Below, piece by piece: positions 42,722-64,000 of a DNA stretch of 64,000 nt (the first letter of the stretch is position 1; each line of letters opens with the position of its first letter). The notes beneath the pieces were generated by a model. That model searched no databases and was not told the origin of the DNA. It saw only the letters and a list, made by a program, of their open reading frames with translations. This DNA is from an uncultured Lachnospiraceae bacterium. GTDB taxonomy: Bacteria; Bacillota; Clostridia; Lachnospirales; Lachnospiraceae. The stretch is taken from NCBI GenBank assembly GCA_947652735.1, contig CANTEG010000001.1:1-64000 (forward strand). Direction: 5' to 3'. The position numbers and the translations under genes were made by a program.

Positions 42722-42738
42722 TATTCATCACTCCTATT

Positions 42739-43332: not shown

Positions 43333-43343
43333 AGGCAACACCT

Positions 43344-47924: not shown

Positions 47925-47939
47925 AAATCCCATCCTCTC

Positions 47940-49061
47940 TTAATATACCTTTACGGTACCACTCTTGCTTCCTACGCTAAATCTTGGCGATGTACTGTCA
48001 TCACCGCTCACCTTAAAGAATACTGGAACACTCGTCTTGTTATCAACTGTCACCTTTACTCCGTTTGTATCAGAAGAATCTACTCTTGCAGATGATTCTA
48101 CATAAATCTTAAGGTCAGCTGATGTGATTTCTTTCTTGTATGACTTATCTCCGATTGCATATGTTACGAAGTTCTTTCCGTCCTCTTCTGCAATTGTTAT
48201 GGTAAGTGTTTCAACACTGTTTTCACCGCTTGTTACATATGTATCGGAACCGCCTGATGATACAATGATACCATCTGTATTATCATTGTTTGCATTGTTA
48301 AGCACAATCTTAATGTCATTGTTTGAAGCAAGTGATGCTCCATTGTCTGAGTCATATGCATATGTTGCAGGTGATGCTGCACCATCTCCTCCGAGGAAGA
48401 TATTAGCTACACCATTCTTCACGTCTACAGCAATCTTATCTGCCTCTCTGTCTGCACCTGCCACACAGTAAGCGTTCATGGATAAGGAACCTGTATATAC
48501 ATCCAACTCTGAATCATATGTAATGTTAAGACTGTCTATGTTCATTCTGTACTTATAATTCATCACATAGTCAACATACTCCTTGATACCTTCATAGGAA
48601 CCTGAATAAGTAATTGGAAATGCTGCCTTATATGCAGTGTAGGTTGCCGTTGCTGCCGCCTCAGCAGCCGCATCTGCCGTTCCATCCACTGGTGCAGCAG
48701 CGCCAAGTGCATAAAACTGCTCTGGTCTTCCAAGACCGACTGACTGAACCACAAACTGTCTGTCGCCTTCATCCTTATTAATTCCCTTTACAAACATAAC
48801 TGAAATTTCCTGATCAAGCGTTGCAGGAAAAACTGTTAACTGTTTCTGAAAGGCATCTTTAAATTCCTTTGTCTCGTCTATATACTTTTGCTTATCCTGC
48901 GACTTCGCATAAAGTTCGTCATATCTTGCCTGAAGTGTATCAACTTCAGCCTGAATAGTGTCCACTTCCTCCATATTCGGCTTATATACATATAAGTATA
49001 CCCCGCCTACTATCACTACGGCCAGTAAGACTAAAAGTATGATTGTATTTCCCTTTGACAT
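47940..49061 (-). CDS. pilO: Type IV pilus alignment protein PilO-like
   Basis: 373 residues. A single membrane helix (IILLVLLAVVIVGGVYLYV, 7-25) is followed by a coiled coil (VDTIQAEVDTLQARYDELYAKSQDKQKYI, ~33-65), then a ferredoxin-like fold region (VFPATLDQEISVMF...YSGSYEGIKEYVDYVMNYKYRMNIDSLNIT), typical of PilO. The last ~150 residues are a Ser/Asp/Asn-rich beta domain not found in classical PilO (~200 residues). With PilM-PilN upstream, it completes the inner-membrane alignment complex. In a Gram-positive there is no PilP, which fits its absence here. Confidence 0.85.
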   Translation of the reverse strand: MSKGNTIILLVLLAVVIVGGVYLYVYKPNMEEVDTIQAEVDTLQARYDELYAKSQDKQKYIDETKEFKDAFQKQLTVFPATLDQEISVMFVKGINKDEGDRQFVVQSVGLGRPEQFYALGAAAPVDGTADAAAEAAATATYTAYKAAFPITYSGSYEGIKEYVDYVMNYKYRMNIDSLNITYDSELDVYTGSLSMNAYCVAGADREADKIAVDVKNGVANIFLGGDGAASPATYAYDSDNGASLASNNDIKIVLNNANNDNTDGIIVSSGGSDTYVTSGENSVETLTITIAEEDGKNFVTYAIGDKSYKKEITSADLKIYVESSARVDSSDTNGVKVTVDNKTSVPVFFKVSGDDSTSPRFSVGSKSGTVKVY

Positions 49062-49079
49062 ATATATATCCCTCCTTTT

Positions 49080-50729
49080 TTACTCTGCCGATTCTGTCGT
49101 TTCTTCTGTTGCACCTGCTTCTGCTGCTGCAGCTTCTTCTTCCATCTGTTGCAAGAGCAAAGCATACGGATTTGTATAAACACAGGTTACAGTAAACTCA
49201 TATGTTACGGTTTCCGTACCCTCACTTACTCTTTTTGCAATACTTGCAACATAAGCATCTTCTATACATTCCATCGTCTTAAGCTGCACAATAAAATCTG
49301 CTATAGAGTCATAATCTGTTGACACACATGGCATAGACACACCTTCATTTGCTGAGCTGAAACCTGACACAATAACCGTAGTCGGTATCTTGTTTTCAAG
49401 CTGTGTAATAAACTCTCTCATGTTTTCATTCAACTGATACGTTGCCATATACATAGCTGTGATATCAATGAGTTCTGCCTGTGCCTGATCATGTTCCTTA
49501 ATTATCTGCTCAATGTCCGCAATACTTGCAATCTTGCTGTTAAGGTTATCTCTCTCTGCCTCCTTGTCGGACTTTGTCTTGATAGAGTAAAATGCAAGTC
49601 CTGCCGCACCGATTGCCGCAATAACAACCAGTGCAATAAATGGTGCCAGACTGATTTCTCCACTGGAGCCCTTTGCCGCAGCTTCAATTGTCTCAAATCC
49701 CATTGGTGCAAAAGCGGCACCAATAGGAGCTACCAGATATACAGGGTTATATACCTTAAGGTCAATACTTGGGTCAAACTTAATGTTGTAAAGACTATCC
49801 ATGATACGTACATTTACATTCAACTGTATTTTGAACAGTCCGTCTATACCTTTTATGAGTGCTCCATCACCTGTAAGGAACACATCATCGATTGGCTTAT
49901 CAGGGTTCTTTGATGCATAGTAGTCCATAACACGTCCTATGTTGTTGATAAGATACCTGAAAGCACCTGTAGCCTCATTGTCATCAAAATCTACAGTAAT
50001 AAGTCTGTCATTCTGAAGTAATGTCATGGCAGTCGTTGCATCTACGCCCTTGTCGTCCATGACAACATTTACAACAGAGTTTGTACCGTATGGTACAGTT
50101 CTCTGAAGAAGAAGATTGTCGCCCTGAACTATATTCAGTACAGTTGACTCACTTCCTAACTGGATTACCATTGTGGTAGTATTTGCCGCAGTCTGTGTCT
50201 TGATAAGCTGAAGCATTGAATTTCCGATGTAATCAAGTGCTACAACATTAAGCCCTGCCATAGATGCCAAATCATAATAGGACTTTACTATCTGTGCCGG
50301 TGCTGCTACTGCAAGAACTCTTAACTGCTTGTTGTTCTCCTCGTCTGTTACCGTTTCAAGAACAGAGTGAGAAACCACATAATCCTCTATATTTACAGGG
50401 AAATACTCCTGGGAGTTTGCATTTATGATTCCTCTGATTTTGTTCTCCTTTACGAAAGGTATAATAACCTCTCTGTTTACTATCTTCGTAGAAGAAAGAA
50501 CGAATACTGCATTCTTGTTTGAAATCCCCCTACTGGACAGTTGGTCGCGAATAGCTGCTGCTATTCTGTCAGGCTCCTTGATGATACCATCCTCATAGGC
50601 ATCTTCAGGAGTTTCAAATATAATTACATTGTGAATGTTCGTCTGCTTTTTCTGAGAAGCAGTCAACTCAATAATTGTAATACTTTCATTGGTGATATCA
50701 ATGGATAACACTTTATTGATTTTTGCCAT
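49080..50729 (-). CDS. pilM: PilM-PilN fusion protein
   Basis: 549 residues. The first ~340 are an actin-like PilM domain: VLSIDITNESITIIEL, VIIPFVKENKIRGIINANSQEYFP, MVIQLGSESTVLNIVQG and VFLTGDGALIKGIDG are the phosphate and adenosine motifs. A linker ends in a membrane helix (361-382, LAPFIALVVIAAIGAAGLAF). A coiled coil (~390-420) and a ferredoxin-like domain (IPTTVIVSGFSSANEG ... DFIVQLKTME) follow, as in PilN. PilM and PilN are usually separate proteins held by the INLLP motif of PilN; here ISLAPF before the helix is a possible remnant. The tail is Glu/Ala-rich. pilO follows after 18 bases. Confidence 0.88.
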   Translation of the reverse strand: MAKINKVLSIDITNESITIIELTASQKKQTNIHNVIIFETPEDAYEDGIIKEPDRIAAAIRDQLSSRGISNKNAVFVLSSTKIVNREVIIPFVKENKIRGIINANSQEYFPVNIEDYVVSHSVLETVTDEENNKQLRVLAVAAPAQIVKSYYDLASMAGLNVVALDYIGNSMLQLIKTQTAANTTTMVIQLGSESTVLNIVQGDNLLLQRTVPYGTNSVVNVVMDDKGVDATTAMTLLQNDRLITVDFDDNEATGAFRYLINNIGRVMDYYASKNPDKPIDDVFLTGDGALIKGIDGLFKIQLNVNVRIMDSLYNIKFDPSIDLKVYNPVYLVAPIGAAFAPMGFETIEAAAKGSSGEISLAPFIALVVIAAIGAAGLAFYSIKTKSDKEAERDNLNSKIASIADIEQIIKEHDQAQAELIDITAMYMATYQLNENMREFITQLENKIPTTVIVSGFSSANEGVSMPCVSTDYDSIADFIVQLKTMECIEDAYVASIAKRVSEGTETVTYEFTVTCVYTNPYALLLQQMEEEAAAAEAGATEETTESAE

Positions 50730-50776
50730 TCCTTATAGCCTCCCTCGCTAATCAGTGATTTAAAATAATTGGTGGA

Positions 50777-51538
50777 TTATAAAAATGTCCACATACTCAG
50801 GTACCAGCTTACAAGCTGCTCACCCCATATCATTGCTATATATACGCCCATAGATAAATATGGACCAAAAGCCAACACCCGGTCAGCTTTCTTAACAGCC
50901 ATCAATGTCAGATGTATAACTGAACCGAGCACACATCCTGACAAAAATGCTATAATATTAAGCTGCCAGCCCAATAGTAAGCCGGTTGCTGCCATAAGCT
51001 TTATGTCACCACCACCCATCGCTCTTCCCCGCGAAACAAGAAGCAGCAATAATAAAAAACCGCTGACCGCAAATAAACCGATTACATACTGACTCCAGTT
51101 ACCGATATCAGTAACAAGTCTAATCAGACCTAAAAGAAAAATAAATATGTTAAATCCCGGTGGGATTTCTTTTGTACGCCAGTCTATAAAGCTAAGCGCA
51201 ATCAAGGCAGAAGTACACAGGCAGTAAAGCATCGTATTTATCGAAAGTCCGCATGCGAGGTACAAGACGGTGTACAGTAATCCATTCAGTCCTTCGACAA
51301 TCGGATACTGACACGATATATGTACTTTACAATACCTGCACTTTCCACCTAAAAACAAATAACTGAATAATGGAAAAAGATCATACCATGCAAGGGTATG
51401 TCCGCATTCCATACAGTGAGACCTCTCTCTCGCCAGACTCTCCTTTAACGGAGTACGTAGTATCACAACATTCAGGAAGCTTCCGATTACGATTCCATAT
51501 ATAAAAAATATAACAGAAAAAATCAGTATTTCCATCAT
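50777..51538 (-). CDS. pilD: Prepilin peptidase/N-methylase (A24 family)
   Basis: 253 residues. It cuts the class III leader of the pilins in this locus and methylates the new N-terminal residue. About seven hydrophobic helices are visible. The N-terminal cytoplasmic zinc loop has the two CxxC pairs (HCMECGHT and CRYCKVH) that mark the bifunctional enzyme. The catalytic aspartates are in SFIDWRTKEIP and in GGGDIKLMAA (the GxGD motif). The start is one of two adjacent ATG codons. The gene lies between pilA and the pilM-N gene. Confidence 0.93.
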   Translation of the reverse strand: MMEILIFSVIFFIYGIVIGSFLNVVILRTPLKESLARERSHCMECGHTLAWYDLFPLFSYLFLGGKCRYCKVHISCQYPIVEGLNGLLYTVLYLACGLSINTMLYCLCTSALIALSFIDWRTKEIPPGFNIFIFLLGLIRLVTDIGNWSQYVIGLFAVSGFLLLLLLVSRGRAMGGGDIKLMAATGLLLGWQLNIIAFLSGCVLGSVIHLTLMAVKKADRVLAFGPYLSMGVYIAMIWGEQLVSWYLSMWTFL

Positions 51539-51570
51539 GTTTCAAGGTCCCTTCTTAAGATTTTAAATAC

Positions 51571-51608
51571 AGTTAAATTCCACCTGGCGAATCAGGTGGA
51601 ACTTAACT
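51571..51608. terminator. Strong hairpin between pilA and pilD
   Basis: Sixteen-base arms (AGTTAAATTCCACCTG and its complement with one G-U-type mismatch) around a six-base loop, 15 bases after the pilA stop. The downstream T-content is modest, so read-through to pilD is likely. The hairpin could both stabilise the abundant pilA mRNA end and reduce downstream expression. Confidence 0.7.
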
Positions 51609-51622
51609 ATACTATAATTAGC

Positions 51623-52171
51623 TTACTGATAATTCTTGTTAATTTCAGGAACAAGCTCATAACCACCTGATATTGCTCCAGTAGAAGCGTTAACTGTAGG
51701 CTCAGCATTAGTACCAAGTATAACCTTAACCTGACCAGTTCCTGAACATACAACATACCATGTAGTTGGTGCACCAATTGTTGAATCAGCAGCTTTCTTA
51801 TACTTAATCTTCGGAACACTCTCACTGAGGTTCTTGAAGATTTCGTCTACAGCCTCTGCCTGTGTCGTTGTTGCGTTAGAAGGCCATGTAACATTAGTAA
51901 CTGCAACACCTGAAGCAGAAGTTGCACCAGGAGTAAGCTTAAGAACCGGCTTAGCTGTCACGCTTGTCAAAGCTGCATAAGTATCCTCATTTGACATAGC
52001 TGTCTCAACAGCAGTCTTGATTGTCTTAGCAGCTGAAAGGTCATTTGACTTTCTTGACTTATCAATGTATCTGATAAGTGCCGGTGCAATTGCTCCTGCA
52101 AGGATAGCCATAATAGCTATAACAATGATAAGCTCTACGAGTGAGAAACCTTTGTTGTTTGTTTTCTTCAT
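51623..52171 (-). CDS. pilA: Major type IV pilin
   Basis: 182 residues with a short leader MKKTNNKG, cut before FSLVELIIVIAIMAILAGAIAPALIRY; the Gly at -1, Phe at +1 and Glu at +5 are all canonical. The N-terminal helix is followed by the region SRKSNDLSAAKTIKTAVETAMS and then a beta-rich head with Thr/Ala/Gly-rich loops. No cysteine pair is evident: a single Cys lies in YVVCSG. The ATG at 52171 is chosen because GGAGAG lies eight bases upstream; an in-frame start 14 codons earlier has no site. It is the only ordinary-sized pilin in the locus and sits just after pilC, so it is the likely main subunit. Confidence 0.92.
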   Translation of the reverse strand: MKKTNNKGFSLVELIIVIAIMAILAGAIAPALIRYIDKSRKSNDLSAAKTIKTAVETAMSNEDTYAALTSVTAKPVLKLTPGATSASGVAVTNVTWPSNATTTQAEAVDEIFKNLSESVPKIKYKKAADSTIGAPTTWYVVCSGTGQVKVILGTNAEPTVNASTGAISGGYELVPEINKNYQ

Positions 52172-52261
52172 AAATAAATCTCTCCTTTTCTTTTTATTTT
52201 GACAAAATGTCATATATATGATATCAACCCACCGTCCTCGCCCAGTGGGAGAAATCCGTTT

Positions 52262-53464
52262 TTAATAGTTATCGATAGCGTCGTACATACTAAGCATCGG
52301 TGAGTAAATTGCAAGTACAATACTACCAACAGTAACACCCATGACAACTATGATAATAGGCTCCATCATGGCTGTCAGTGCATCGGTTGCATTGTTTACT
52401 TCCATTTCATAATAGTCAGCAACCTTATCCATCATATCTTCGATGTTACCAGTTTCCTCTCCTATCTTCGTCATCTGTGACAACATAGGTGGAAAAATCT
52501 CCATATCCCTGATAGGTTTAGAAAGAGGCACACCCTTTGCAACCTGAACCTTGGCATCAAGCAGACCCTCTCTGATTATCTTGTTGTTCTGCATCTTTGC
52601 AACCTGCTCTATGGCATCCATCAGCGGAACACCGGAACCCATCAATGTACTTAAGGTTCTTGCAAATGTTGCTGCTGCAGACTTAATGGTAAGATTTCCA
52701 AACAACGGTGCCTTAATTGCTATGGAGGAGTAAAGCTGTGCCCCTGTGTTTGTCTTGCCATACTGCACAAGAGCAAATACAATCGCTGCTATGACAAGGG
52801 CAAGCACAATACCATGATGTTGCAAAAAGCTACTGAAGTTAACCAGCATCTGTGTCGGCTTCGGAAGCTCCGAACCCAAGTCCTCAAACATATCTGCAAA
52901 TGTAGGAACAACTCCTACAAGAAGTACAACTACTACCGCAATAACAACCACAAGTATAACGATAGGATACGTCATGGCACCTTTGACTTTCGACTTTAAC
53001 TTGTTTGAATTCTCAAAGTGGGTAGTCAGTCTGTCAAAGGATGTCTCCAAACTACCTGAAATCTCACCTGCCGCAACCATGTTGATAAATATCGGTGGGA
53101 ACACCTTAGGATTCAGCCTGAAAGCGTCTGCCAGAGTACCACCCTTTTGAACATATCCCTGCGCCTCCCTGATTGCTCTTTGAAGCGTCTTGTTATCAAG
53201 CTGTTCACTCATCATCTCAAGTGCCTGTATAATCGTAACACCTGCGTTTAACACGGCACCAAACTGCTTACAGAAAACCGCAAGATCCTGATCCTTAACC
53301 TTCTTGCCGCCGCCTTTCTTGCCGCTACCCTGTTCTTTAATTTCCTGAACAATGAAACCTTCGGACTTCAGCTTTTCTCTTGCCTTGTCCTCGCTTACGG
53401 CCTCAACGGTACCCTTTTTAGGTTTGCCGTTTTTGTCCATAACCTTGTAATTATATTGTGCCAT
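52262..53464 (-). CDS. pilC: Type IV pilus inner-membrane platform protein PilC
   Basis: 400 residues, the GspF/PilC platform protein, with three conserved membrane helices (about residues 172-192, 220-240 and 372-392). The first cytoplasmic domain has the family opening MAQYNYKVMDKNGKPKKGTVEA and LAVFCKQFGAVLNAGVTIIQAL. The repeat of the two domains is visible: the second (FARTLSTLMGSGVPLMDAIEQV) mirrors the first. The C-terminal VMGVTVGSIVLAIYSPMLSMY also fits. The start ATG has GGAGG upstream. A near-consensus promoter lies 117 bases upstream, so pilC can head its own transcript with pilA and the downstream genes. Confidence 0.94.
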   Translation of the reverse strand: MAQYNYKVMDKNGKPKKGTVEAVSEDKAREKLKSEGFIVQEIKEQGSGKKGGGKKVKDQDLAVFCKQFGAVLNAGVTIIQALEMMSEQLDNKTLQRAIREAQGYVQKGGTLADAFRLNPKVFPPIFINMVAAGEISGSLETSFDRLTTHFENSNKLKSKVKGAMTYPIVILVVVIAVVVVLLVGVVPTFADMFEDLGSELPKPTQMLVNFSSFLQHHGIVLALVIAAIVFALVQYGKTNTGAQLYSSIAIKAPLFGNLTIKSAAATFARTLSTLMGSGVPLMDAIEQVAKMQNNKIIREGLLDAKVQVAKGVPLSKPIRDMEIFPPMLSQMTKIGEETGNIEDMMDKVADYYEMEVNNATDALTAMMEPIIIVVMGVTVGSIVLAIYSPMLSMYDAIDNY

Positions 53465-53483
53465 TTCAATTCCTCCGACCCGA

Positions 53484-53508
53484 TTTTTTTAACAGAAAAT
53501 TTTGTTCT
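53484..53508. repeat. 25-base intergenic motif, copy 3, in the pilC leader
   Basis: The core reads CAGAAAATTTTGTTCT. It aligns without gaps to copies at 11438-11462 and 27699-27723. Here it is inside the predicted pilC leader RNA, 20 bases before the start codon, and in the opposite orientation to the gene. Confidence 0.5.
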
Positions 53509-53510
53509 CT

Positions 53511-53609
53511 ATGGCACGTTTCTTACGAAACCTGCCATATTTAAAAATGAACAAAATGTTAACAATATGTATCTAAACTAATAATACAACATTTCTTAAA
53601 ATAATGCAA
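53511..53609 (-). promoter_or_regulatory. pilC promoter and leader hairpin
   Basis: On the minus strand TTGCAT (53609-53604), a 17-base spacer and TATTAT (53586-53581) form a near-consensus promoter; transcription would begin near 53574. The leader then contains a hairpin at 53511-53538, with ATGGCA/TGCCAT and GTTTC/GAAAC stems. The ~110-base leader and structure could allow post-transcriptional control; I see no c-di-GMP riboswitch consensus in it. Confidence 0.65.
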
Positions 53610-53737
53610 TAAAAACAAATATTTTAAATATATTTTGGTCAATATTACCAAAATACCAAACATTTGCCCGATACAAATGATATCTATTGCGTTAATTTTA
53701 TACATTTTATTTGTATATTTCTACCTTTGCACCAATC

Positions 53738-54790
53738 TTACATCTGTTTCTTCATGGCAGCCTGATCTTGAGCATATATGAGTGCATTATCTCTTGTAAT
53801 GGAACCATTTCTGTAAAGCTCCATAATGAAGTCATCCATGGTAACCATTCCCTGTGCCCTGCTTGTCTGTATGGAGGACTGAATCTGGTGCGTCTTTGCC
53901 TCACGGATAAGACTTCGTATTGCCGAGCTTGCAAGCATAACCTCGAAAGCCGCAACTCGTCCATTTCCGTCAGCAGTCGGTATCAGCGACTGTGATATAA
54001 CACCCTCAAGAACCATGGAGAGCTGTATACGTGTCTGTTGCTGCTGATGCGGTGGGAATACGTCAACAATACGGTCGATTGTTGATGCTGCACCAATTGT
54101 ATGCAGTGTGGAGAAAACCAAGTGACCTGTCTCAGCAGCGGTTATGGCTGTGGAGATAGTCTCCAAGTCTCTCATCTCTCCTACAAGTATGATATCAGGG
54201 TCCTCACGGAGTGCAGCTCTAAGTGCGTTAGCATAGGAAAGTGTATCCATACCGATTTCTCTTTGGTTTACAACTGACTTTTTGTGCTTGTGTACATACT
54301 CGATAGGATCCTCAAGTGTTATAATATGGTCTGTAAGATTCTCGTTTGCCTTATTTATAATAGAAGCAAGTGTTGTCGACTTACCAGAACCTGTAGGACC
54401 TGTTACAAGAACCAGACCCCTTTTCTTTTTGTAAAGCTGTACAACCGAATCCGGTATACCAAGCATATCCGGTCTCGGAATCTGTGTATCTACCTTTCTG
54501 TATGCAGCAGCCATGTTACCCCTGTCCATAAAAACGTTTACACGGAAACGTCCTGTCTCTGCTGATGCATATGAGAAGTCGACCTCGCCCCTTTCCTTCA
54601 GAATTGCCTTATGCCTCTCATGCATGGTTGAACCTATTGCTTCAGCAACATCCGCCGGTGCAAGAGGCGGAACTTCAACCTCTGTAAGCTTTCCATGTAT
54701 ACGAAGCTTTGGCGGTATACCACAAGCTATATGTACATCGGATGCATTCTGCTCTACCGCAAATGCCAGTAACTCCTTCATATCTAACAT
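53738..54790 (-). CDS. pilT: Type IV pilus retraction ATPase PilT
   Basis: 350 residues; a hexameric AAA-like ATPase that depolymerises the pilus and drives twitching or DNA uptake. Walker A GPTGSGKSTT, the Asp box IITLEDPIE, Walker B ILVGEMRDLET, the His box STLHTIGAAST and the retraction signature AIRSLIRE near the C-terminus (canonical AIRNLIRE) are all present. The C-terminal length is normal and the N-terminal PAS-like domain (SDVHIACG) is complete. It is the second gene of the locus, after pilB, with an 82-base gap, and precedes the pilC promoter region. Its presence predicts dynamic, retractable pili. Confidence 0.95.
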   Translation of the reverse strand: MLDMKELLAFAVEQNASDVHIACGIPPKLRIHGKLTEVEVPPLAPADVAEAIGSTMHERHKAILKERGEVDFSYASAETGRFRVNVFMDRGNMAAAYRKVDTQIPRPDMLGIPDSVVQLYKKKRGLVLVTGPTGSGKSTTLASIINKANENLTDHIITLEDPIEYVHKHKKSVVNQREIGMDTLSYANALRAALREDPDIILVGEMRDLETISTAITAAETGHLVFSTLHTIGAASTIDRIVDVFPPHQQQQTRIQLSMVLEGVISQSLIPTADGNGRVAAFEVMLASSAIRSLIREAKTHQIQSSIQTSRAQGMVTMDDFIMELYRNGSITRDNALIYAQDQAAMKKQM

Positions 54791-54872
54791 TATATATACA
54801 TCTCCTTTTCGTGAATTTTTCTTTTATATTTGTTTGTGTGAATATTATTTCAGGTTGTAATCACCTATTATA

Positions 54873-56594
54873 TTAATATTCGTCTCCTGTCTCGTATGTT
54901 ATCTTTTTCATCTCTGAAAGTGATGTAATACCGTTCAAAACGTGTTTTGCCGCACCCATCTTAAGTGTAAGCATACCTTCTGAAAGCGCCTGTTTTTCAA
55001 TAACATCCGCAGTCGACCCCTTTGCGATAACCGCTTGAAGTGATTTTGATACAGGCATCATCTCATACACACCGATACGTCCTGAATATCCTGTCTCACC
55101 GCAAAGTGTACATCCCGCTGGTTCGTATACAATAACATCCTCGTCCATATCCTTCACACCGAGTATAACCTTCTCGTCATCATCCGCAAGTCTCGCCTGT
55201 TTACAGGAACCACAAAGTCTTCTCACAAGTCTTTGTGCGATAACTCCCACAAGTGCATCTCCTGCAACGTACGGCTCAATTCCCATATCTATAATACGGG
55301 TAACCGTAGATGCAGCCGAGTTTGTATGGAGTGTTGAAACAACCAAGTGACCTGTGATAGCGGCCTGAACAGCAATACTTGCAGTCTCACCATCACGAAT
55401 CTCTCCTATCATAATGATATCAGGGTCCTGACGAAGTATGGAACGAAGTGCCGCCGCAAATGTCATATCAGCCTTGACATTAACCTGTACCTGATTGATA
55501 CCATCAATATTTGCCTCCACAGGGTCCTCAACCGTGATTATGTTAACATCCTCAGTATTGAGCTCACTCAATGATGTATAAAGCGTTGTTGACTTACCGG
55601 AACCTGTAGGACCCGTAACAAGAATAATTCCATGGGGGTTACTGAGTATACCATCAAATACCTTAAGCTCTTCCGGTCCGAATCCAAGGGCACTCTTAGG
55701 TTTTGTAAGACCATCCTTGGAAGTAAGTCTCATAACCGTCTTTTCGCCGTATACCGTTGGGAGCATGGAAACACGGACATCATACTCTCGTCTGTCAACC
55801 ATTATGGTAATACGACCGTCCTGCGGTTTTCTCTTCTCAGCGATATCCATACCACCTATGATTTTGATACGGGCACTGATTGCAGACAGGAGACTGTAAT
55901 CATATGTCATAACCTGCTTCAATGCACCATCTATTCTGTACCTTACACGAACACTCATCTCCAACGGTTCAATATGTATATCAGATGCTCTTTGTCTTAC
56001 TCCACCTTCTATAATCTGCTTTACAAGAAGAACAATAGGAGAATTTTCTATGTCCTCATTTAATGCTTCTTCTTCGGTCTCGGTTATGCCATCGGCCTCA
56101 CGCTCTTTTCTGTACTGCTCCGCAGCCTCCATAGCCTGGGCATTACCGTAGTATTTTCCGATTGCCTCATTCAGGTCATCCTCCATGGCAAGGAGTGGTT
56201 CAACCTGCGTGTTGGTTGCGATACCAATGTCATCCACTGCGTTAAGATCCATCGGATCAGCCATTGCAACCCGAAGCACGTTAGGATTCATTTCATCATA
56301 TCCAATCGGTATTGCCTTGTACTTGTTGACAAGGTTCTCCGGAACAAGCTTCAGTATATCATCATCCAGCTTACATGCCTTAAGCTCTATGAAATCAATA
56401 CCCATCTGAGTTGTAAGAACCGTAACAAGGAGATCCTGACTGATAAGACCAAGCTGCATTATGACATTACCAATCCGTCCGCCATTTTCTTTTTGGTAGG
56501 CAAGTGCTTCCTGAAGCTCATCTTCCGTTATTGCTCCTGCTTCTACAAGCAAATCACCTACACGAATTTTCTTTCTTCCACTAGTAATTCGCAT
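54873..56594 (-). CDS. pilB: Type IV pilus extension ATPase PilB with MshEN domain
   Basis: 573 residues; the cytoplasmic hexameric ATPase that powers pilus assembly. The N-terminal MshEN domain has two matching 24-residue motifs, at 11-34 and 40-63, separated by five residues. Each starts RxG, has a Gly at position 10 and ends L(x)xQ, exactly the tandem pattern known to bind c-di-GMP in MshE-type ATPases. The ATPase core has Walker A GPTGSGKSTT, IITVEDPVE, Walker B IIMIGEIRDGET and the His box STLHTNSA. A zinc tetracysteine motif is visible in CGSCKQ and CTLCGETG. The ATG at 56594 is chosen because GAGAGGG lies nine bases upstream. First gene of the locus. Confidence 0.95.
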   Translation of the reverse strand: MRITSGRKKIRVGDLLVEAGAITEDELQEALAYQKENGGRIGNVIMQLGLISQDLLVTVLTTQMGIDFIELKACKLDDDILKLVPENLVNKYKAIPIGYDEMNPNVLRVAMADPMDLNAVDDIGIATNTQVEPLLAMEDDLNEAIGKYYGNAQAMEAAEQYRKEREADGITETEEEALNEDIENSPIVLLVKQIIEGGVRQRASDIHIEPLEMSVRVRYRIDGALKQVMTYDYSLLSAISARIKIIGGMDIAEKRKPQDGRITIMVDRREYDVRVSMLPTVYGEKTVMRLTSKDGLTKPKSALGFGPEELKVFDGILSNPHGIILVTGPTGSGKSTTLYTSLSELNTEDVNIITVEDPVEANIDGINQVQVNVKADMTFAAALRSILRQDPDIIMIGEIRDGETASIAVQAAITGHLVVSTLHTNSAASTVTRIIDMGIEPYVAGDALVGVIAQRLVRRLCGSCKQARLADDDEKVILGVKDMDEDVIVYEPAGCTLCGETGYSGRIGVYEMMPVSKSLQAVIAKGSTADVIEKQALSEGMLTLKMGAAKHVLNGITSLSEMKKITYETGDEY

Positions 56595-56709
56595 ACACAC
56601 ATTCCCTCTCATCATAATATAGTTAGTTGTTTATAGTATACCACAAGACATGCTGTATGGGAAGAAAAAATATAAATTGTTTTAGGGAATCTGAATCGTA
56701 CGAAGGCTT

Positions 56710-58140
56710 TTACACAATCTCCAAATCGTCCCTGTCACGGAGCATATATTTCTTTAAAGGCGTTATGCTTGCAATCAGGTAAAGCAGTCCTCCAAAAATT
56801 GCGGTAAATCCGCTCCCTGTCGTAAACAGGAATATATCGCTGTGTATTATGCCTGTCATCGGATTGTATACAAATAGCATGGATACCACAAATGCAATGA
56901 TAAGACAACCGATACCCACAAAATTAAATCCGCCCGTAAACTTATACGCGTCATGTCCATCCAATCCGTATGCCGATTTCAGTGACAGCTTTCTCTTTTT
57001 TACAATCAGATAATCCACCAGTGTCATACCGATGATAGGTCCCTGTATGTATGCGGCAAGTGATATAAATGCACCAAAGTGATCATTTACACCACCCCAT
57101 ATTGTAAGTCCGCTGACATACACCATCGCAATGATAACCAACAACTTATAGCTGACCTTCGGCATACCACTCTTTACAATCATACAGTTTACATACGAGC
57201 CGGTTCCCTGAGTACCTACATTTGCAAAAGCAACCATCAGTAAGCTTAAAAGGGCAAAGCCCGAACCACAAAGCGTAGACAGCATTGCCGTTGGGTCACT
57301 TTCATATATTCCTGTCTTAACATACATAGCAAACGCCATGACGCCGCCTGCTGCCACAAAGAAAGGAGCAACGATACCATAGGAAATAGCCGTACCCCAA
57401 AAACCACTTCTCTCTGACCTTGCAAGCCTCGGCATTACAAGTGCCTGTGTTGACCACGAGAATGCAAAGGCTACATTTCCCTCTGCCGACAGCATAAAAT
57501 TAACAAGGGAAGAATTGCCATTATCAACAACCGGCTTCACCGCTGCAATATCTGATAAAGGCACTGCCGTAAAGCAAAGTCCCACTACAATGGCTCCCAC
57601 AATCAACAGTGCTGTTACCAAAAACCGGTTTGTCCACTTTATTACATCAGGTCCGCCTAAGGCAATCAGCGTTCCAAGAACAACACAAAGCGTCCCCAGT
57701 ACCGGGTTCCAAATATCCGGATTTAGGTGCAGTCCAAAATTACCTGCAAGATTAATCATGGATGATGAAAATAGATTTGCTGCAACTGCATACCAGCCGA
57801 AATTAGCAAGACTGATTATCGTTGCAATTACTGCAACTCCCTTTGCTCCAAGCACGGAACGCAGCCATATCCACAAATCAATTCCGTACCTTACGGCAAA
57901 CAATACCGGAATACACTCAATAATTATCCAAACGATATTAAAACAGAAAATGTTGATAAGCAGCTGCTTGAAGGTCAAAAACTGTGCCCCGTATGCTCCC
58001 TGTGTGTAGCACCATGTTGCAATGGCAAAGCCGCTTGTTGAAAGAAGCAAATCAATAAAAGTATACTGTCTGTCCTTTTTCAGCATCGGCACAACGCCCG
58101 TAACTGTTTCCTGTCTTATGTAATCTGCATTTTTTCCCAT
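56710..58140 (-). CDS. NCS1-family permease (cytosine/purine/choline-type)
   Basis: 476 residues with about 12 membrane helices. It has the NCS1 layout: an N-terminal RQETVTGVVPML, LSTSGFAIATWCYTQGA in the first helix pair, then LGTLIALGGPDVIKWTNRFL and a central substrate helix with EGNVAFAFSWSTQALVMPRLARSE. The family carries cytosine, purines, hydantoins, thiamine and related molecules. The ATG at 58140 overlaps the stop of the 64-residue gene (TAATG), and the 64-residue gene overlaps the LicC-LicA fusion gene. Coupling to a choline kinase gene suggests that this permease imports choline or a related quaternary amine, which would be a new substrate for NCS1; that is inferred, and the usual choline permease LicB is absent here. 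Confidence 0.75.
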   Translation of the reverse strand: MGKNADYIRQETVTGVVPMLKKDRQYTFIDLLLSTSGFAIATWCYTQGAYGAQFLTFKQLLINIFCFNIVWIIIECIPVLFAVRYGIDLWIWLRSVLGAKGVAVIATIISLANFGWYAVAANLFSSSMINLAGNFGLHLNPDIWNPVLGTLCVVLGTLIALGGPDVIKWTNRFLVTALLIVGAIVVGLCFTAVPLSDIAAVKPVVDNGNSSLVNFMLSAEGNVAFAFSWSTQALVMPRLARSERSGFWGTAISYGIVAPFFVAAGGVMAFAMYVKTGIYESDPTAMLSTLCGSGFALLSLLMVAFANVGTQGTGSYVNCMIVKSGMPKVSYKLLVIIAMVYVSGLTIWGGVNDHFGAFISLAAYIQGPIIGMTLVDYLIVKKRKLSLKSAYGLDGHDAYKFTGGFNFVGIGCLIIAFVVSMLFVYNPMTGIIHSDIFLFTTGSGFTAIFGGLLYLIASITPLKKYMLRDRDDLEIV

Positions 58141-58334
58141 TACTGTATCACCCCTGTCATGCAAAGTGCAATCAGTACCGCACTTACTATAAATCCCGCA
58201 ATCATAACGATTACATCCACCTTGCCAATTCTTTTTGGAAATTCATAATCAGGCTGTTCCATTTCATTCAACCGTTTTTCCGTCTCTGATGAAATAAGCT
58301 CCTCAAGAGACAGTTCCTTTTCTTCCTTACTCAT
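58140..58334 (-). CDS. 64-residue single-helix membrane protein
   Basis: A small protein with an acidic, Glu-rich cytoplasmic N-terminus (SKEEKELSLEELISSETEKRL), a short basic segment (EFPKRIGK) and one membrane helix near the C-terminus (VDVIVMIAGFIVSAVLIALCM). The ATG at 58334 has GAAGGAGAGAGC upstream and lies eight bases inside the end of the LicC-LicA gene; the permease start overlaps its stop by one base. So it is translated between kinase and permease. Such a protein is too small for a transporter, but its position suggests an accessory or regulatory subunit of the permease. Family not recognised. Confidence 0.7.
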   Translation of the reverse strand: MSKEEKELSLEELISSETEKRLNEMEQPDYEFPKRIGKVDVIVMIAGFIVSAVLIALCMTGVIQ

Positions 58335-60120
58335 AGCTCTCTCCTTCGTTATTATCAAAATATTTTTTCGCTTCCCTACTGTATGTCTTTGTGTATTTAT
58401 ACCAAATATACAGATACTCACCGACATCATTTCCAACACTGTTTTGATAAATCGCCCACAAAAACCAATAATATGCCGCTGCCGCTATATAGGTATAAAA
58501 ATACCTTCTTTCCTTTGTGTCAGCCTCATACCCCAAATACAGTTTGATTATCCCGTCGGCTTCCTCTTTCGTATAATCCGAGCAGGCAATAAACGTACCA
58601 ATATCACCGCCCCTATAAGCCATTCCTGAATACTCCCAGTCAATGAGATACATTTTCCCCGAAGCATCAACGAGAAAATTGGGGTCATAGCTGTCACAGT
58701 GGCAAAGACATTTTTCGTTATCCTCCTGAAGGATAAGATTACGGAGCTTTTCCATTGTATCATGCAGCTCCTGCATATCCTCAAACTGATTATTCCCCCG
58801 TTCCTCAAGACGCTCCTCAAACTTACGGATTTCCTCCCAGATATCAAATATAAAATCGGTCTTTAAATTGCATGTATGGAGTCTTCTCACCATGCTTATG
58901 GCTTCCTCTACCTGTTCCTTGTCATGATAATCAAGAGTTTGGGCATTCTCTATATAATGGGAAATCTTCCATCCGTCTTTTTCGTCCATACAGATAAATG
59001 TATCATCAAGCCCCAGCCTTTTTGCAATTTCCAGTGATTTCTTTTCACTCATCCGATTTATGAAATTGGAGGTACCTACCCCTGGATGTCTGTACACATA
59101 TTCCTTTCCATTTACGGTAAAGCGGAAAGAAAAATTGGTAAGTCCCTTTTTAATCGGAACAATATTTGTTATATTTTCCTCTTTTACATTTAATGCTGTA
59201 CATATATTGGTAAATATTTTGGAATTTGCATTTTTTAAATACTTATCATCAAAGCCCCTAAGCTCCTCCAAGGAATCAAACTCCTTGATTTTATCAGCGT
59301 CATATTTTCTGATGTATAAATCAAGCTCCTTAATATGACGTATATAAAAGTCTTCCCAAAGCTGCTGCTTCGTCAGGGGGTCGTCATATTCATTTCTTAA
59401 AATCCTGACAAAGCTTTTGCTAAACTCCCTGTCAAAATACACGTGCCCCAGCATATACCATGAAGCCTGTCCGCCTATGGTCACCTTTGTTATCCGCCCC
59501 TTATTATTAAAAGATAAACAATATTCATCTGTTTTAGCCGCCTCATATACAGCGGCATAGTAAGCTCTATACACATAAGGCTCAAAGGGATTTTCAGTAA
59601 AATAGTTGTCTGATGAGCATATATATGTGTTGTCCAGCCTATTGGCCACACGAATTAATGTAGAAGTATTATTATATCTGTAATAATCATCATTAATGAC
59701 AATATTTACATTATATTTATCTTCTAAATAAAAGAGCTGCTCCTTCAAGTAGCCCACAACAACCGTTATATCAGTTATGCCTGCCTCCTGAAGCTGCTTA
59801 ATTTCCCTTTCAATGAGTATCTCTCCCTTTACCTTAAGCAACGCCTTTGGCTTTTCATATGAAAGAGGAACGAATCTGCTGCTCATACCTGCCGCCATAA
59901 TAACTGCATTTTTAACCTTGTATGATTCCATAGCTTCATATCCTACAGAAGAAATCTGCATATCATTGTTTAAAAGTCCTGCTTCCGCAAGTTCCTTTAC
60001 AGCCTCATTAATCTTACCTAAGGAATATCCCGTTTCCCCTGCAAGCTCTCTCTGCGTAAATTTATAACCCTGCTTTTGAATAACCGTATAAAGTATTTTA
60101 AATTGTGTTTCTGTCAACAT
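58327..60120 (-). CDS. HTH-cytidylyltransferase-choline kinase fusion (LicC-LicA type)
   Basis: 597 residues in three parts. Residues 1-65 are a winged-helix HTH (TQRELAGETGYSLGKINEAVKEL). Residues 70-290 are a nucleotidyltransferase with AAGMSSRFVPLSYEKPKALLKVKGE, NDDYYRYNNTSTLIRV and SDNYFTENPF, as in LicC CTP:phosphocholine cytidylyltransferase. Residues 310-590 are an aminoglycoside/choline-kinase fold with HCDSYDPNFLVDASG, IDWEYSGMAYRGGDIGTF and a Lys/Glu-rich end, as in LicA. In pneumococcus LicA and LicC are separate and activate choline for teichoic acid decoration. Here both are fused with a DNA-binding-like domain. GGGAG precedes the ATG. The gene leads a coupled operon with the small protein and the permease. 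Confidence 0.85.
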   Translation of the reverse strand: MLTETQFKILYTVIQKQGYKFTQRELAGETGYSLGKINEAVKELAEAGLLNNDMQISSVGYEAMESYKVKNAVIMAAGMSSRFVPLSYEKPKALLKVKGEILIEREIKQLQEAGITDITVVVGYLKEQLFYLEDKYNVNIVINDDYYRYNNTSTLIRVANRLDNTYICSSDNYFTENPFEPYVYRAYYAAVYEAAKTDEYCLSFNNKGRITKVTIGGQASWYMLGHVYFDREFSKSFVRILRNEYDDPLTKQQLWEDFYIRHIKELDLYIRKYDADKIKEFDSLEELRGFDDKYLKNANSKIFTNICTALNVKEENITNIVPIKKGLTNFSFRFTVNGKEYVYRHPGVGTSNFINRMSEKKSLEIAKRLGLDDTFICMDEKDGWKISHYIENAQTLDYHDKEQVEEAISMVRRLHTCNLKTDFIFDIWEEIRKFEERLEERGNNQFEDMQELHDTMEKLRNLILQEDNEKCLCHCDSYDPNFLVDASGKMYLIDWEYSGMAYRGGDIGTFIACSDYTKEEADGIIKLYLGYEADTKERRYFYTYIAAAAYYWFLWAIYQNSVGNDVGEYLYIWYKYTKTYSREAKKYFDNNEGESYE

Positions 60121-60302: not shown

Positions 60303-63134
60303 TTATCTTGTTGCGTCTGACGGAAATACATACTCATCAAGCACGATTTCCTCATCGTAAAATTCCCAGTTTGCCCGGTTCCACAAATCCGCCTTTACCC
60401 TCGCCCATCTTGCAGGGAGAAAAGTGTTCCCATTATTAATATGGGTATTTGATTCCTCCGACAAGATGATGTACTGTTCATGTGCCATTTTTTCGGAATT
60501 GGTAATTACCTTTCCCGTAAATGGATTTGTAGGATTTTCAATCAAATCATCCGTTGCAAGTACTGGCACATCCGCATTTGTCATAAACTCCTCCGACACA
60601 AGAAATTCCGTGCTACCAAAATCCTTCACAAGCAACAGCGGATAATATTTTTCCGCATCAACAGGATTGCCCTTTTGATTATCAAAAATCAACTCATCAA
60701 AATGATAAAGATTACTTCCATGGTCGGAGACGATAATTATTTTCGTATTATCATATACACCATTTTCCCTCAGAAAATCAAACCATTCCCCAAGCTTCAT
60801 CAGTGCTGCCATATTCGAATGATAATGTTCCATCTGTCTGCTGTTTTCCATGCTTAAGGTTTTTTCGTCCACCGTAAACCGCCATGTGTTTTCGGCATCA
60901 TATTCCGTGTTGTCTATAGTCTGTGCAGGAATATACGCAGGTTCCAAAAGCAGCGTAGGCTCATGGGTTATGTTATTTGTCATGTATAAAAATGTGTTTA
61001 CATTCTCCTCTGTCACAGTTGTCATTAAAGACATATTATCAAGTACATTATACGAGTCCATAAATACTGTACTTAATCCTTCCGCCTTTGACATGCCATC
61101 GGCAATCTGCACATTATGCATAATCCCGACTTTGTTATACGAACCGTCAGCATATATGGTTGACTGTGCAAAAAGCGGCATTGTTTTCATAATACTAAAA
61201 CAGAAAAAATTGCGTCGGTTATTATTTATATTCTGCCGCTTTACCTGCGGTGATGTAAAATGTCCCTCCGTAGTATATGCATTGATATCCGGATACGTAT
61301 CAAAAATTGATACATCAGTAGTCCATTCATAGTTTACATATACCGGGTCACATACCGTCACCTCATATCCATTGTCCGCAAATAAAACCGGCATTACCTT
61401 GATTGCTTCATTGTGCTTGTCAGCCAAGGCCTCGTCCGCCCTTTTATTCATCTCTACAGGAGTATACTCATATCCACCCAAGATTCCCGGCAGGCCAAAA
61501 TTCGTACTCCCGCCAAGGGATATTGTGTTGGAATACCAGGTAAAGCCTGCAAACTGCTCCAAAAGCTCCGGCTTTTCATTCATGATATATGGTATATATG
61601 CACCCATCCCTCTGTCAAGCATAATTACGACTACATTTTTTCCCTCCGTGCTAAGGGAAAAAAACTGTTCTTTCTCCTGCAGTGTTTCAAATGAAACCTT
61701 ATCAACCGATGTTTTAATATTAAAAATATTAATTGAAGACATAACTACCAGTGCAATTGATGCGGTGACCGTAAGCCAGAAGCTGATTCGGTACCATTTA
61801 CACACAATAAAATACATCGCTCCTGCAACCAAAATCAATACAAGCACATTGAACATTCGTTCCTTTATCGAAAAATACATGCCATTATCGTACTGCAGCA
61901 TTGCAGATATATTACCCAGTTTCGTTCCAAAAAACATATAATTTACAAGGGTAAGTCCGCAGAAAATCCATGCAAGCCTTTCAAATATAACCTTGCCCCT
62001 TGGACTTGCAAGCCAGTAAAACACCTTCATCCATACCAAAAATGTACCCACCGCCATTATGGCAGAAACTGCAATATATCGAATTGGATGATAAAAAACA
62101 ACAAGGTCAATATATTCTTGTGGGGAAGCGGAAATAAACACTGACGGAATAAATATTCCAATCAAAACTGTCAAAAAAACCATACATATATTAAATATTT
62201 TACTGTTCGGGTTTGAGGTTTTGGTTCTCATTTTCTCCCATTTGAGTTGGCGATGCTCCGAATTTTGACCATTACCGCTTCTCTTTTTTATTTGAATAAT
62301 AACCAAAAAACCTAACAGGAGTTCCACCAATACTGCCATGCATATCATAAAATACTTCTGACTCAGCAACGGCGGATGATAAAATTTGATGATATACGTA
62401 ATAAGTGCTATGTTTGCAGCTAATGCACACATTACAATTGCAAGCGGAGTTATTAAATACCTTTTTACCTTAGAAAACATCTGTTTAAACAGGGAGAACA
62501 AATTATTAAGCGTCCAGTAAAATACAAGACCGGATGGTGAGCCATATAAAAATACAAGAAAAAACAGTGCCATTCCATAAAGCTGTATCTTCGTCTTTAC
62601 GGGAGAGCCTTTTGAATAAAGAACGCTTGCTATTATATTGATGGCAGTCATAAGAATAGGCAGAAGATTTATGGTGATGCCGCCAATCACAAGCATTCCG
62701 TCCGGTCTGCTCAAATCTGCAATGGGACCTAAGGATACACCATCCAGAATTTCTAAGTGCGAAAGAAATTGGTATGCCGCAATAAAAAACGGAATTTGAA
62801 GCAGCAACGGCACGGAGCCTTTCAACGCATCTGCCGGCTTATAATGATTTTGCCTGTAGTATGTCTGGAGTACCATCATTTTCTCATCACCGGAAAATGT
62901 TTTTTTAATATGTGCTACCCCGTCACGAAGCTTTGCATCAATATTCTCCGCCTGCTTCTGCATGGCATCCGCACGTCTGTAAAGCGGCAGTACCAGTATA
63001 TTTATAACGAGGCTTAAAAAAAAGATTGCCAAACCCGGATTATAAAAATATCGGTAGAAAATCCCATATACAATCTCAAAAAGCAGCTCCAGCGGTCCGA
63101 TGAATACCATATAAATCAGTTCAAAGAAAATCAT
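60303..63134 (-). CDS. YidC/Oxa1 insertase fused to an alkaline-phosphatase/LtaS-superfamily domain
   Basis: 943 residues, apparently a fusion of two membrane-linked activities. Residues 1-~225 are a YidC/Oxa1 insertase: NPGLAIFFLSLVINILVLPLYRRADAMQ, then MVLQTYYRQNHYKPADALKG and the family signature VPLLLQIPFFIAAYQFLS. Further hydrophobic helices lie between ~225 and 470. Residues ~497-943 are an extracellular alkaline-phosphatase-superfamily domain: metal ligand D507 in VVIMLDRGM, a Thr in GGSTNFGLPG (T544, candidate nucleophile) and D804/H805 in IIVSDHGSN. LtaS and phosphoethanolamine transferases have this fold. The combination could move or modify a lipid-linked polymer. A close paralogue lies just upstream. 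Not a standard YidC, as no signal-like N-terminus or KRAK-type tail is present. Confidence 0.8.
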   Translation of the reverse strand: MIFFELIYMVFIGPLELLFEIVYGIFYRYFYNPGLAIFFLSLVINILVLPLYRRADAMQKQAENIDAKLRDGVAHIKKTFSGDEKMMVLQTYYRQNHYKPADALKGSVPLLLQIPFFIAAYQFLSHLEILDGVSLGPIADLSRPDGMLVIGGITINLLPILMTAINIIASVLYSKGSPVKTKIQLYGMALFFLVFLYGSPSGLVFYWTLNNLFSLFKQMFSKVKRYLITPLAIVMCALAANIALITYIIKFYHPPLLSQKYFMICMAVLVELLLGFLVIIQIKKRSGNGQNSEHRQLKWEKMRTKTSNPNSKIFNICMVFLTVLIGIFIPSVFISASPQEYIDLVVFYHPIRYIAVSAIMAVGTFLVWMKVFYWLASPRGKVIFERLAWIFCGLTLVNYMFFGTKLGNISAMLQYDNGMYFSIKERMFNVLVLILVAGAMYFIVCKWYRISFWLTVTASIALVVMSSINIFNIKTSVDKVSFETLQEKEQFFSLSTEGKNVVVIMLDRGMGAYIPYIMNEKPELLEQFAGFTWYSNTISLGGSTNFGLPGILGGYEYTPVEMNKRADEALADKHNEAIKVMPVLFADNGYEVTVCDPVYVNYEWTTDVSIFDTYPDINAYTTEGHFTSPQVKRQNINNNRRNFFCFSIMKTMPLFAQSTIYADGSYNKVGIMHNVQIADGMSKAEGLSTVFMDSYNVLDNMSLMTTVTEENVNTFLYMTNNITHEPTLLLEPAYIPAQTIDNTEYDAENTWRFTVDEKTLSMENSRQMEHYHSNMAALMKLGEWFDFLRENGVYDNTKIIIVSDHGSNLYHFDELIFDNQKGNPVDAEKYYPLLLVKDFGSTEFLVSEEFMTNADVPVLATDDLIENPTNPFTGKVITNSEKMAHEQYIILSEESNTHINNGNTFLPARWARVKADLWNRANWEFYDEEIVLDEYVFPSDATR

Positions 63135-63146
63135 TTATTTGCCCTC

Positions 63147-64000
63147 CTAATTTATATTCGGGAATGCATACTCATCAAGCACGATTTCCTCATTATAAAA
63201 TTCCCAGTTTTCCCTATTTCGCAAATCATCCTTTACCCTCGCCCATCTTGCAGGCAGGAAGGTGTTGCCGTTATTAAAAGCAGTATTCGCTTCCTCCGAC
63301 ACAATAATGTACTGTTCATGTGCCGTTTTCTCGGAATTGGTAATCGCCTTTCCCGTAAATGGATTTGTGGGATTTTCAATCAAATCATTTGTTGCAAGTA
63401 CAGGCACATCCGCATTCGTCATAAACTCTTCCGACACGGAAAACTCCGTGCTGTCAAAATCCTTCACAAGCAACAGCGGATAATATAGCTCTACATCATC
63501 AGGAATACCATTATCTTCATTAAATACCAAATCGTCAAAATGATAAAGATTTCTTCCGTGATCTGATACGATTATTATTTTCATATTATCATATACACCA
63601 TTTTCCCGTAGAAAATCAAACCATTCCCCAAGCTTCATCAGTGCCGCCATATTTGAATGATAATGTATCATCTGGTTGCTGTTTTCCATACTTAAGGTTT
63701 TTCCGTCCACCGTAAATCTCCATGTGTTTTCGGTGTCGTATTTCGTATTGTCTATGGTCTGTGCAGGAATATACGCAGGCTCCGACAGCAGCATCGGGTC
63801 ATGGGTTGTGTCATTTACTAAGATAGTAAATGTATTTACTGCGTCACCTGTCACCCTTGTCATACCATTCAGATTGCAAAGTACCTCATAGGATTCCATA
63901 AATATAGAAGATAAGCCCTCTGATTTAGACATAGTATCTATTGTCTGTGTATAGCTCCTGTCACCTATGGCATCCGAGCAGTTGTAAAGTCCCTTGTCAT
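63147..64000 (-). CDS. Paralogue of the YidC-fusion phosphatase domain (partial)
   Basis: The reading frame stays open to the right edge, so the N-terminus is missing. The visible ~280 residues align along their whole length with residues ~660-943 of the neighbour, with most residues the same, including AYIPAQTIDNT, HYHSNMAALMKLGEWF, IIIVSDHGRNLYHF and the C-terminal EIVLDEYAFP. The D/H metal ligands in SDHG are kept, so the copy is probably active. The DNA is also strongly similar. The stop lies 12 bases before the neighbour's start, so the genes form an operon. Whether it also carries a YidC domain cannot be seen. The tandem pair suggests a recent duplication, or gene conversion. Confidence 0.85.
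   Translation of the reverse strand, partial: DKGLYNCSDAIGDRSYTQTIDTMSKSEGLSSIFMESYEVLCNLNGMTRVTGDAVNTFTILVNDTTHDPMLLSEPAYIPAQTIDNTKYDTENTWRFTVDGKTLSMENSNQMIHYHSNMAALMKLGEWFDFLRENGVYDNMKIIIVSDHGRNLYHFDDLVFNEDNGIPDDVELYYPLLLVKDFDSTEFSVSEEFMTNADVPVLATNDLIENPTNPFTGKAITNSEKTAHEQYIIVSEEANTAFNNGNTFLPARWARVKDDLRNRENWEFYNEEIVLDEYAFPNIN

Follow-up and report, generated by a model that had tools for sequence, protein, structure and literature searches.

The window analysed here comprises the first 64,000 nucleotides of contig CANTEG010000001.1 (GenBank assembly GCA_947652735.1) from an uncultured Lachnospiraceae bacterium, and this report concerns a gene at 60303..63134 of it, in which a YidC/Oxa1 domain and a domain of the alkaline-phosphatase superfamily are encoded in one chain. 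The gene is a single uninterrupted open reading frame (ORF) of 943 codons from ATG to stop on the minus strand. Its layout, given below, was derived from the frame, from Pfam and NCBIfam matches and from an AlphaFold2 model of the 943-aa product (predicted local distance difference test (pLDDT) 88.4, predicted template modelling score (pTM) 0.76).

60303..63134, minus strand: fused gene, 943 aa, with a YidC/Oxa1 domain, a transmembrane (TM) block and an extracytoplasmic alkaline-phosphatase-superfamily domain
62451..63134, minus strand: YidC/Oxa1 domain, residues 1-228, five TM helices and a cytoplasmic hairpin
62205..62450, minus strand: poorly conserved connector, residues 229-310, with two further TM helices (model helices 230-250 and 257-286)
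61695..62204, minus strand: five-TM block, residues 311-480, as in membrane-anchored phosphotransferases (model helices 311-336, 351-375, 378-401, 423-446 and 448-478)
60306..61646, minus strand: extracytoplasmic alkaline-phosphatase-superfamily domain, residues 497-943
63147..64000, minus strand, cut by the window end and running on to C1:65939: second, tandem fused gene, 930 aa, 65% identical to the first

The tandem copy sits directly upstream of the 60303..63134 gene, and a 413-aa Glyphos_transf gene (hereafter the partner), which precedes both fused copies, comes after C1:65939. An earlier sequence-only reading of the window had proposed the fusion of a YidC insertase to an LtaS-like phosphotransferase; the second copy and the partner were invisible to it because the window ends there. 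Both halves in one chain were confirmed. By hidden Markov model (HMM), the YidC half matched PF02096 with 91 bits, and the outer half taken alone matched PF00884 with 26.0 bits.

The distribution of the fusion was determined in 61 genomes, namely its own genome (the host), 36 of the genus and 24 of the order. Relatives of the outer half were found in 11 of the 61, and fused frames were present in 9 of the 10 other carriers, up to three of them in a row; G021 has its frame in two pieces, and contig ends interrupt copies in G002 and G031. A genome contig collection was scanned with an outer-half profile, by which 378 stretches were found to encode relatives, and the best 80 of them gave 78 loci. 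All 78 loci hold at least one frame with both the YidC and the outer half (90 such frames in total); in L085 the contig covers just the C-terminal 41 residues of the YidC half. Carriers among the contigs scanned include Butyrivibrio sp. XPD2002 and Schwartzia succinivorans DSM 10502. Residue counts were taken over 108 fused frames from 90 overlapping loci, 90 of these frames lying in the 78 loci. In a survey of 391 genomes of the class, scanned with the outer half alone, 12 matched at E 1e-30, all with open frames of 853-943 aa, which is long enough for both halves. Outer-half relatives lacking a YidC part were not seen in these scans, barring L049 and L134, which are cut by contig ends, and the split G021. 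An artefact in which a sequencing error joins two neighbouring genes was ruled out because the tandem copy is fused, 9 of the 10 other carriers hold fused frames and so do all 78 loci. Among plasmid records, 20 matched, none over 80% of the query, and the ten matches listed covered the YidC part only. A relative about 85% identical to the window protein is encoded in L058 (JAMPBO010000014.1). The component parts are of known kinds; for the joined protein or its operon, no description was found in the literature searched by titles and abstract openings.

The tandem copies (window 60303-64000; L004:304-5940) form a mosaic, with 32-62% identity per 50-column block in the connector and TM block and 84-92% identity in the outer domain, over four 50-column blocks. 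This pattern would fit an exchange of parts by gene conversion. Each copy may have an acceptor of its own.

Sequence and fold both place the N-terminal part in the Oxa1 superfamily. PF02096 was matched at residues 34-221 with 91 bits (cut-off 35, E 1e-25) and NCBIfam TIGR03592 with 91 bits (cut-off 84.3), all 68 rows of the YidC-part alignment, the window row included, matched PF02096 at E 0.001, and the five core TM helices and the cytoplasmic hairpin of the YidC fold are present. A chance hydrophobic similarity was rejected on the basis of these family-profile matches and of the HMM alignment to 4utq_A. Such fusion genes may be misnamed "membrane protein insertase YidC" in databases, because the YidC part alone passes the NCBI cut-off for that name. 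In a tree of 19 housekeeping YidCs and 30 of the 68 fused rows (the window and 29 taken at random from the other 67), the fused domains fell on one side of a branch with support of 100/100. The YidC part is also the best-conserved segment of the fusion, with a mean consensus fraction of 0.78, followed by the outer domain (0.65) and the TM block (0.59), the connector being lowest (0.43).

For the groove, the HMM alignment to 4utq_A was used, in which profile position 24 corresponds to residue 345, the alignment runs gap-free through position 45, and positions 45 and 207 correspond to E. coli Arg366 and Tyr517, respectively. The codon concerned is given on the following line.

63000..63002, minus strand: codon of N45, groove residue at the position of E. 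coli R366

Position 45 was Asn in all 87 fused frames of the 78 loci having a letter there. Four frames from divergent copies within the genus have Gln (three frames) or Gly (one frame) instead, and no frame has Arg or Lys; by comparison, the housekeeping YidCs carry Arg or Lys in 18/18 with a letter at that place. These Gly or Gln residues occur in L047, L048 and L050. The positive groove-centre residue expected of a YidC/Oxa1/Alb3 insertase is thereby absent in every fused frame that could be scored. The fusions carry T163, Q184, T208 and N210 in the groove (14 fused rows compared), and T163, T208 and N210 are invariant over all 68 fused rows, whereas the 19 housekeeping YidCs have apolar or small residues, Met, Ala/Ile/Leu/Met or Gly/Ser at these places (Gly or Ser at 210). 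At position 113, 51/68 fusions have Glu and 18/19 housekeeping YidCs have Gln, as does the window protein. From N45 and the extra uncharged polar residues, the groove of the fusion is judged by sequence to be polar but without positive charge, and conserved and re-tuned rather than decayed. The suggestion that the YidC part had been recruited as a mere membrane scaffold was weakened accordingly, this part being the best conserved and its groove more polar, not decayed.

The YidC part might still be an insertase for one client, either the N-terminal hydrophobic segment of the partner or the attached TM block, with joint assembly of the two. The groove residue bears on this in both directions. 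In PMC8920935 the positive residue is called strictly conserved in YidC homologues, and no fused frame that has a letter at this place carries a charge there; because this feature is unmatched, the N-terminal part was not filed as an insertase. The same article describes the charge of E. coli YidC as dispensable if residue 517 is hydrophilic or aromatic. The counterpart here, W207, is aromatic, so charge loss at the R366 position does not prove that insertion was lost. A separate housekeeping YidC is present in the host, and in the model the fused domain continues into the TM part and not into a cytoplasmic tail. A dedicated insertase is regarded as unlikely.

The outer part was assigned to the alkaline-phosphatase superfamily by Sulfatase/Phosphodiest-type profile and by fold. 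PF00884 scored 24.6 bits on the whole chain, just below the cut-off of 25, and 26.0 bits on the outer half alone, and it was matched at E 0.001 by 20 of the 22 rows of the outer-half alignment, the window included. The putative active-site residues are as follows.

61614..61616, minus strand: codon of D507, predicted metal ligand
61503..61505, minus strand: codon of T544, predicted nucleophile
60963..60965, minus strand: codon of H724 in a THxP motif, predicted substrate or metal contact
60720..60725, minus strand: codons of D804 and H805, predicted metal ligands

D507, T544, D804 and H805 had been named as the active site in the sequence-only reading and were located as stated; they would make up the nucleophile and metal-ligand set of the superfamily. 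D507 and T544 were each kept in 90/90 fused frames of the 78 loci, and H724, D804 and H805 in 89/89 frames with a letter at that place. Formylglycine-type sulfatases have the nucleophile motif C/S-x-P-x-R with Cys or Ser. That motif is absent here, the predicted nucleophile being Thr544 in GGSTNFGLPG (T in 90/90). By the model the outer domain faces the outside of the cell, and the earlier assignment as an external phosphotransferase of this superfamily was upheld.

Membership in the LtaS family, which had also been proposed, did not hold up by sequence profile. When the outer-half profile was compared by hhalign with the host LtaS (a single sequence on that side), just 84 TM columns were aligned at 68% probability and the catalytic core was left unaligned; the second LtaS-like host protein, again a single sequence, gave 31 columns at 0.2%. 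By eye, the fusion has Asp (VVIMLDR) where the host LtaS has Glu (IIIQLES). The LtaS-type arrangement of five TM helices ahead of an outside domain is found at helices 311-478, but the YidC domain and two connector helices precede it. In fold comparison, phosphonate monoester hydrolase, choline sulfatase, PbgA/YejM, LtaP and EptC scored as well as LtaS or better, and the absence of a fold match was never used to exclude a family. The VIA-align matches to PbgA and MCR-1 start at residues 300-308, with a large overall root-mean-square deviation. Solved structures searched with an outer-half profile yielded six matches, all short and weak, which were to sulfatases and a phosphonate hydrolase. EptA/MCR, PbgA/YejM and LtaS are alike in having TM helices followed by an outside domain of the same superfamily, and the 6xlp and 9nww matches start in or just ahead of the TM block of the fusion; the fusion differs from all of them by an extra YidC domain in front. 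It differs likewise from the YidC/Oxa1/Alb3 insertases, by the added outside enzyme, by Asn, or in rare cases Gln or Gly, in place of the conserved Arg/Lys, by more uncharged polar residues in the groove and by its separate group in the tree.

The steady companion of the fusion is the partner gene. PF04464 matched it with 44.5 bits (cut-off 22.1) at residues 183-344 only, and its profile found the TagF-like chain Cps3D at E 1e-4 as a distant relative. At E 1e-60 the partner was detected in 11/11 fusion carriers and 0/50 non-carriers among the 61 genomes (Fisher 2e-12, a value that ignores kinship). It lies immediately upstream of the fusion in 69 of the 78 loci. As for the other nine, L085, L093, L131 and L132 have no room for it, the contig starting at or just before the fused frames; it lies about 1.2 kb upstream in L060 and downstream in L097, and it was not found in the available DNA of L096, L102 and L122.

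A polymer synthase could be built from the same parts: the outer domain would use phosphatidylglycerol to build a phosphoglycerol-type chain, which the TagF-like partner would prime or extend inside, the YidC part would do no more than anchor or arrange the enzyme, and LicC-LicA would decorate the product separately. The distant TagF likeness of the partner (PF04464 44.5 bits, Cps3D E 1e-4), the resemblance of the outer domain and TM block to LtaP/LtaS and PbgA/MCR-1, and the absence of LicC-LicA at E 1e-60 from 3/11 carriers are in keeping with this scheme. Against these stand the host LtaS core without a profile match to the outer half, and the presence in the host of further genes of both families, two with PF00884 that look LtaS-like by eye and six with PF04464. 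A passive anchor would leave it unexplained why the groove lies in the best-conserved part. Inspection of the neighbourhoods of part of the loci showed no gene for glycerol activation, though no scan was aimed at one. On balance such a synthase is doubtful.

The genes downstream of the fusion in the window are given on the following lines.

58327..60120, minus strand: winged helix, LicC-type nucleotidyltransferase and LicA-type choline kinase in one chain of 597 aa (PF13412, PF12804 and PF01633 above cut-off)
56710..58164, minus strand: NCS1-type permease adjoining LicC-LicA, candidate importer of a head-group alcohol (PF02133 56.3 bits)
60230-60202: promoter-like TTGACA-17-TATTAT, a consensus match only

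The winged helix fused ahead of LicC-LicA suggests a self-regulating choline-activation protein, and this gene perhaps has its own transcript. The LicC-LicA neighbour noted in the sequence-only reading was found where that reading had placed it, and the choline link recurs elsewhere. Gene content was counted over the 78 loci by BLAST to single references. A gene for cytidine diphosphate (CDP)-type activation of an amino-alcohol head group, which depends on CTP, was present in 48/78 loci, a LicA-type choline kinase in 38/78, LicB/EamA, BCCT or NCS1 transporters in 30/78 and relatives of the NCS1 permease in 5/78; one BCCT neighbour scored 408 bits. In 34 carrier genomes (hand-chosen, covering 34 of the 78 loci), PF01633 found 27 genes above cut-off, and 21 of these were choline kinase frames inside the fusion locus, as compared with 0.21 expected. 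In several distant loci, L065, L066 and L069 among them, LicC, LicA, LicB, the partner and the fusion stand consecutively amid unrelated genes. A mere trait of the window's genus was rejected as the sole cause, the choline kinase adjoining the fusion in loci labelled Oscillospiraceae (L064, L066, L067), Clostridia (L065, L069), Erysipelotrichaceae (L110) and Lachnospiraceae (L120, L130); it was not seen in the four labelled Ruminococcus (L070, L091, L092, L095). LicC-LicA itself is not universal in carriers.

Other head groups appear beside the same pair of genes. In Schwartzia succinivorans the fusion adjoins phosphoenolpyruvate (PEP) mutase, phosphonopyruvate decarboxylase and aminoethylphosphonate (AEP) aminotransferase, all above cut-offs, and this is the sole AEP locus of the 78. 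In that locus (L097:2898-16797) the fusion is beside a LicD-like gene, and a DltB-like gene and the 2-aminoethylphosphonate set are also there. Nucleotidyltransferases joined to a CobD-like decarboxylase lie near or beside the module at L044:10649-13178, L049:3712-5553, L050:9923-11737 and L133:4008-5855, adjoining it in L049, L050 and L133. The CobD-like relative of L044 scored 171 bits, below the CobD model cut-off of 290, and is accompanied by what is by eye a methyltransferase-like gene. The nucleotidyltransferase-CobD-like chain would make an ethanolamine- or propanolamine-type head group. The head group thus seems exchangeable between loci: the fixed components are the TagF-like partner and the fusion, and the variable one is the supply of CDP-activated amino-alcohol phosphate. 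The neighbouring genes point to CDP-choline or a similar compound as the putative substrate of the partner.

Choline uptake and activation genes could also serve salvage, in which case the outer domain would be a phosphodiesterase acting on host or dietary lipids, and the choline or phosphocholine released would go to the adjacent transporters and LicA/LicC. The constant partner, however, belongs to a transferase family and not to a transporter one, the Schwartzia fusion is paired with phosphonate synthesis, and the fused YidC domain would be left without an evident role; salvage was considered quite improbable.

The reading preferred here, to which a little less than an even chance is given, is that the protein is an outward-facing phospho-head-group transferase with its own membrane passage, fed by a donor made by the partner. 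At the inner membrane face the partner would transfer phosphocholine from its CDP carrier to a lipid or lipid-linked acceptor, the head group in other species being 2-aminoethylphosphonate or a decarboxylated amino-acid phosphate. The YidC fold, with no positive charge but more uncharged polar residues in its groove, would let the polar head reach the outer leaflet. The outer domain would then pick up the phospho-head-group via Thr544 for transfer to an acceptor at the cell surface, for instance a teichoic acid, a glycan or a pilus protein. In PMC10491306, YidC is described as scrambling lipids in liposomes in vitro. In PMC4010543, a phosphotransferase related to EptB (PptA) is required for phosphocholine on gonococcal pilin, and the phosphocholine donor is called yet to be resolved and perplexing; the likening of PptA to the fusion is by description only.

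Proposed with more reserve is the wider view that the YidC-outer transferase fusion and the TagF-like partner form a LicD-independent pathway, in which a lipid-linked phosphocholine, phosphoethanolamine-like or aminoethylphosphonate donor would be made from its CDP form, cross the membrane within the same polypeptide and be transferred at the surface, the insertase fold having moved from peptides to lipid-borne head groups. If true, this would be a natural YidC fold used for lipid or head-group transport and not for protein insertion, it would test whether the in vitro lipid scrambling by insertases has been put to use, and it would give a genetic handle on the donor question for extracellular phosphocholine transfer raised in PMC4010543. 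Gut-bacterial phosphocholine would also bear on host recognition.

Several points weigh against this interpretation. LicC-LicA of the window may use its own promoter, and at E 1e-60 it is absent from 3/11 carriers (found in 8/11) and present in 6/50 non-carriers among the 61 relatives. No head-group gene was found in the available DNA of 30/78 loci, many of which are cut short, and 10 of the 48 head-group loci lack a choline kinase, most of these showing just a nucleotidyltransferase whose substrate is uncertain. Elsewhere in the host genome lie two LicD genes, possible users of CDP-choline, and other PF00884 and PF04464 genes. Hydrolases also rank high in the fold comparison of the model, position 45 is not uniformly Asn, the four divergent frames having Q or G, and insertase activity is compatible with an uncharged residue at the R366 position.

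Parts of the proposed pathway have counterparts in known systems. As in lic systems, genes for choline uptake, kinase and cytidylyltransferase stand beside the fusion module. Unlike in those systems, a LicD query found relatives in just 2/78 loci, though the host has its two LicD genes elsewhere, and the transfer step would be carried out by the TagF-like partner and the fusion. The nucleotidyltransferase-CobD-like fusions near or beside the module in some relatives recall the C. difficile type A flagellin modification genes, of which CD0242 presumably resembles such a fusion. In the available part of PMC4441256, CD0241-CD0244 are predicted to transfer phosphothreonine to a flagellin sugar, CD0244 has some similarity to glycerophosphotransferases with its function called unclear, and a YidC-fused transferase is not mentioned. 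PntC-type CDP-2-aminoethylphosphonate pathways are matched by the Schwartzia locus with its PEP mutase, decarboxylase, aminotransferase and nucleotidyltransferase. PMC6697681 describes the activation of 2-aminoethylphosphonate via CDP; YidC has 0 occurrences in its main text, and the fusion is absent there.

With regard to surface acceptors, a type IV pilus cluster at 41756-56615 of the window, with two T2SSE ATPases, T2SSF, a prepilin peptidase, PilM and a protein with an N-terminal methylation motif, adjoins the LicC-LicA and permease genes, and the pilus is a possible phosphocholine acceptor. A PilB-like gene is also close to the fusion in L087. Of the 90 loci in the ORF set, 3 (from two genomes, the window not counted) have PilB/PilT-like genes close to the fusion, and 4 (also from two genomes) have flagellin there. 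The latter are the overlapping loci L043, L045, L060 and L062 of two close relatives, in which flagellin lies a few kb from the module in place of pilus genes. With 3 and 4 of 90 loci, type IV pili or flagella were set aside as a general acceptor and kept as a lead. At 36293-41737 of the window, a secreted-looking protein of 1814 aa adjoins the pilin-like genes.

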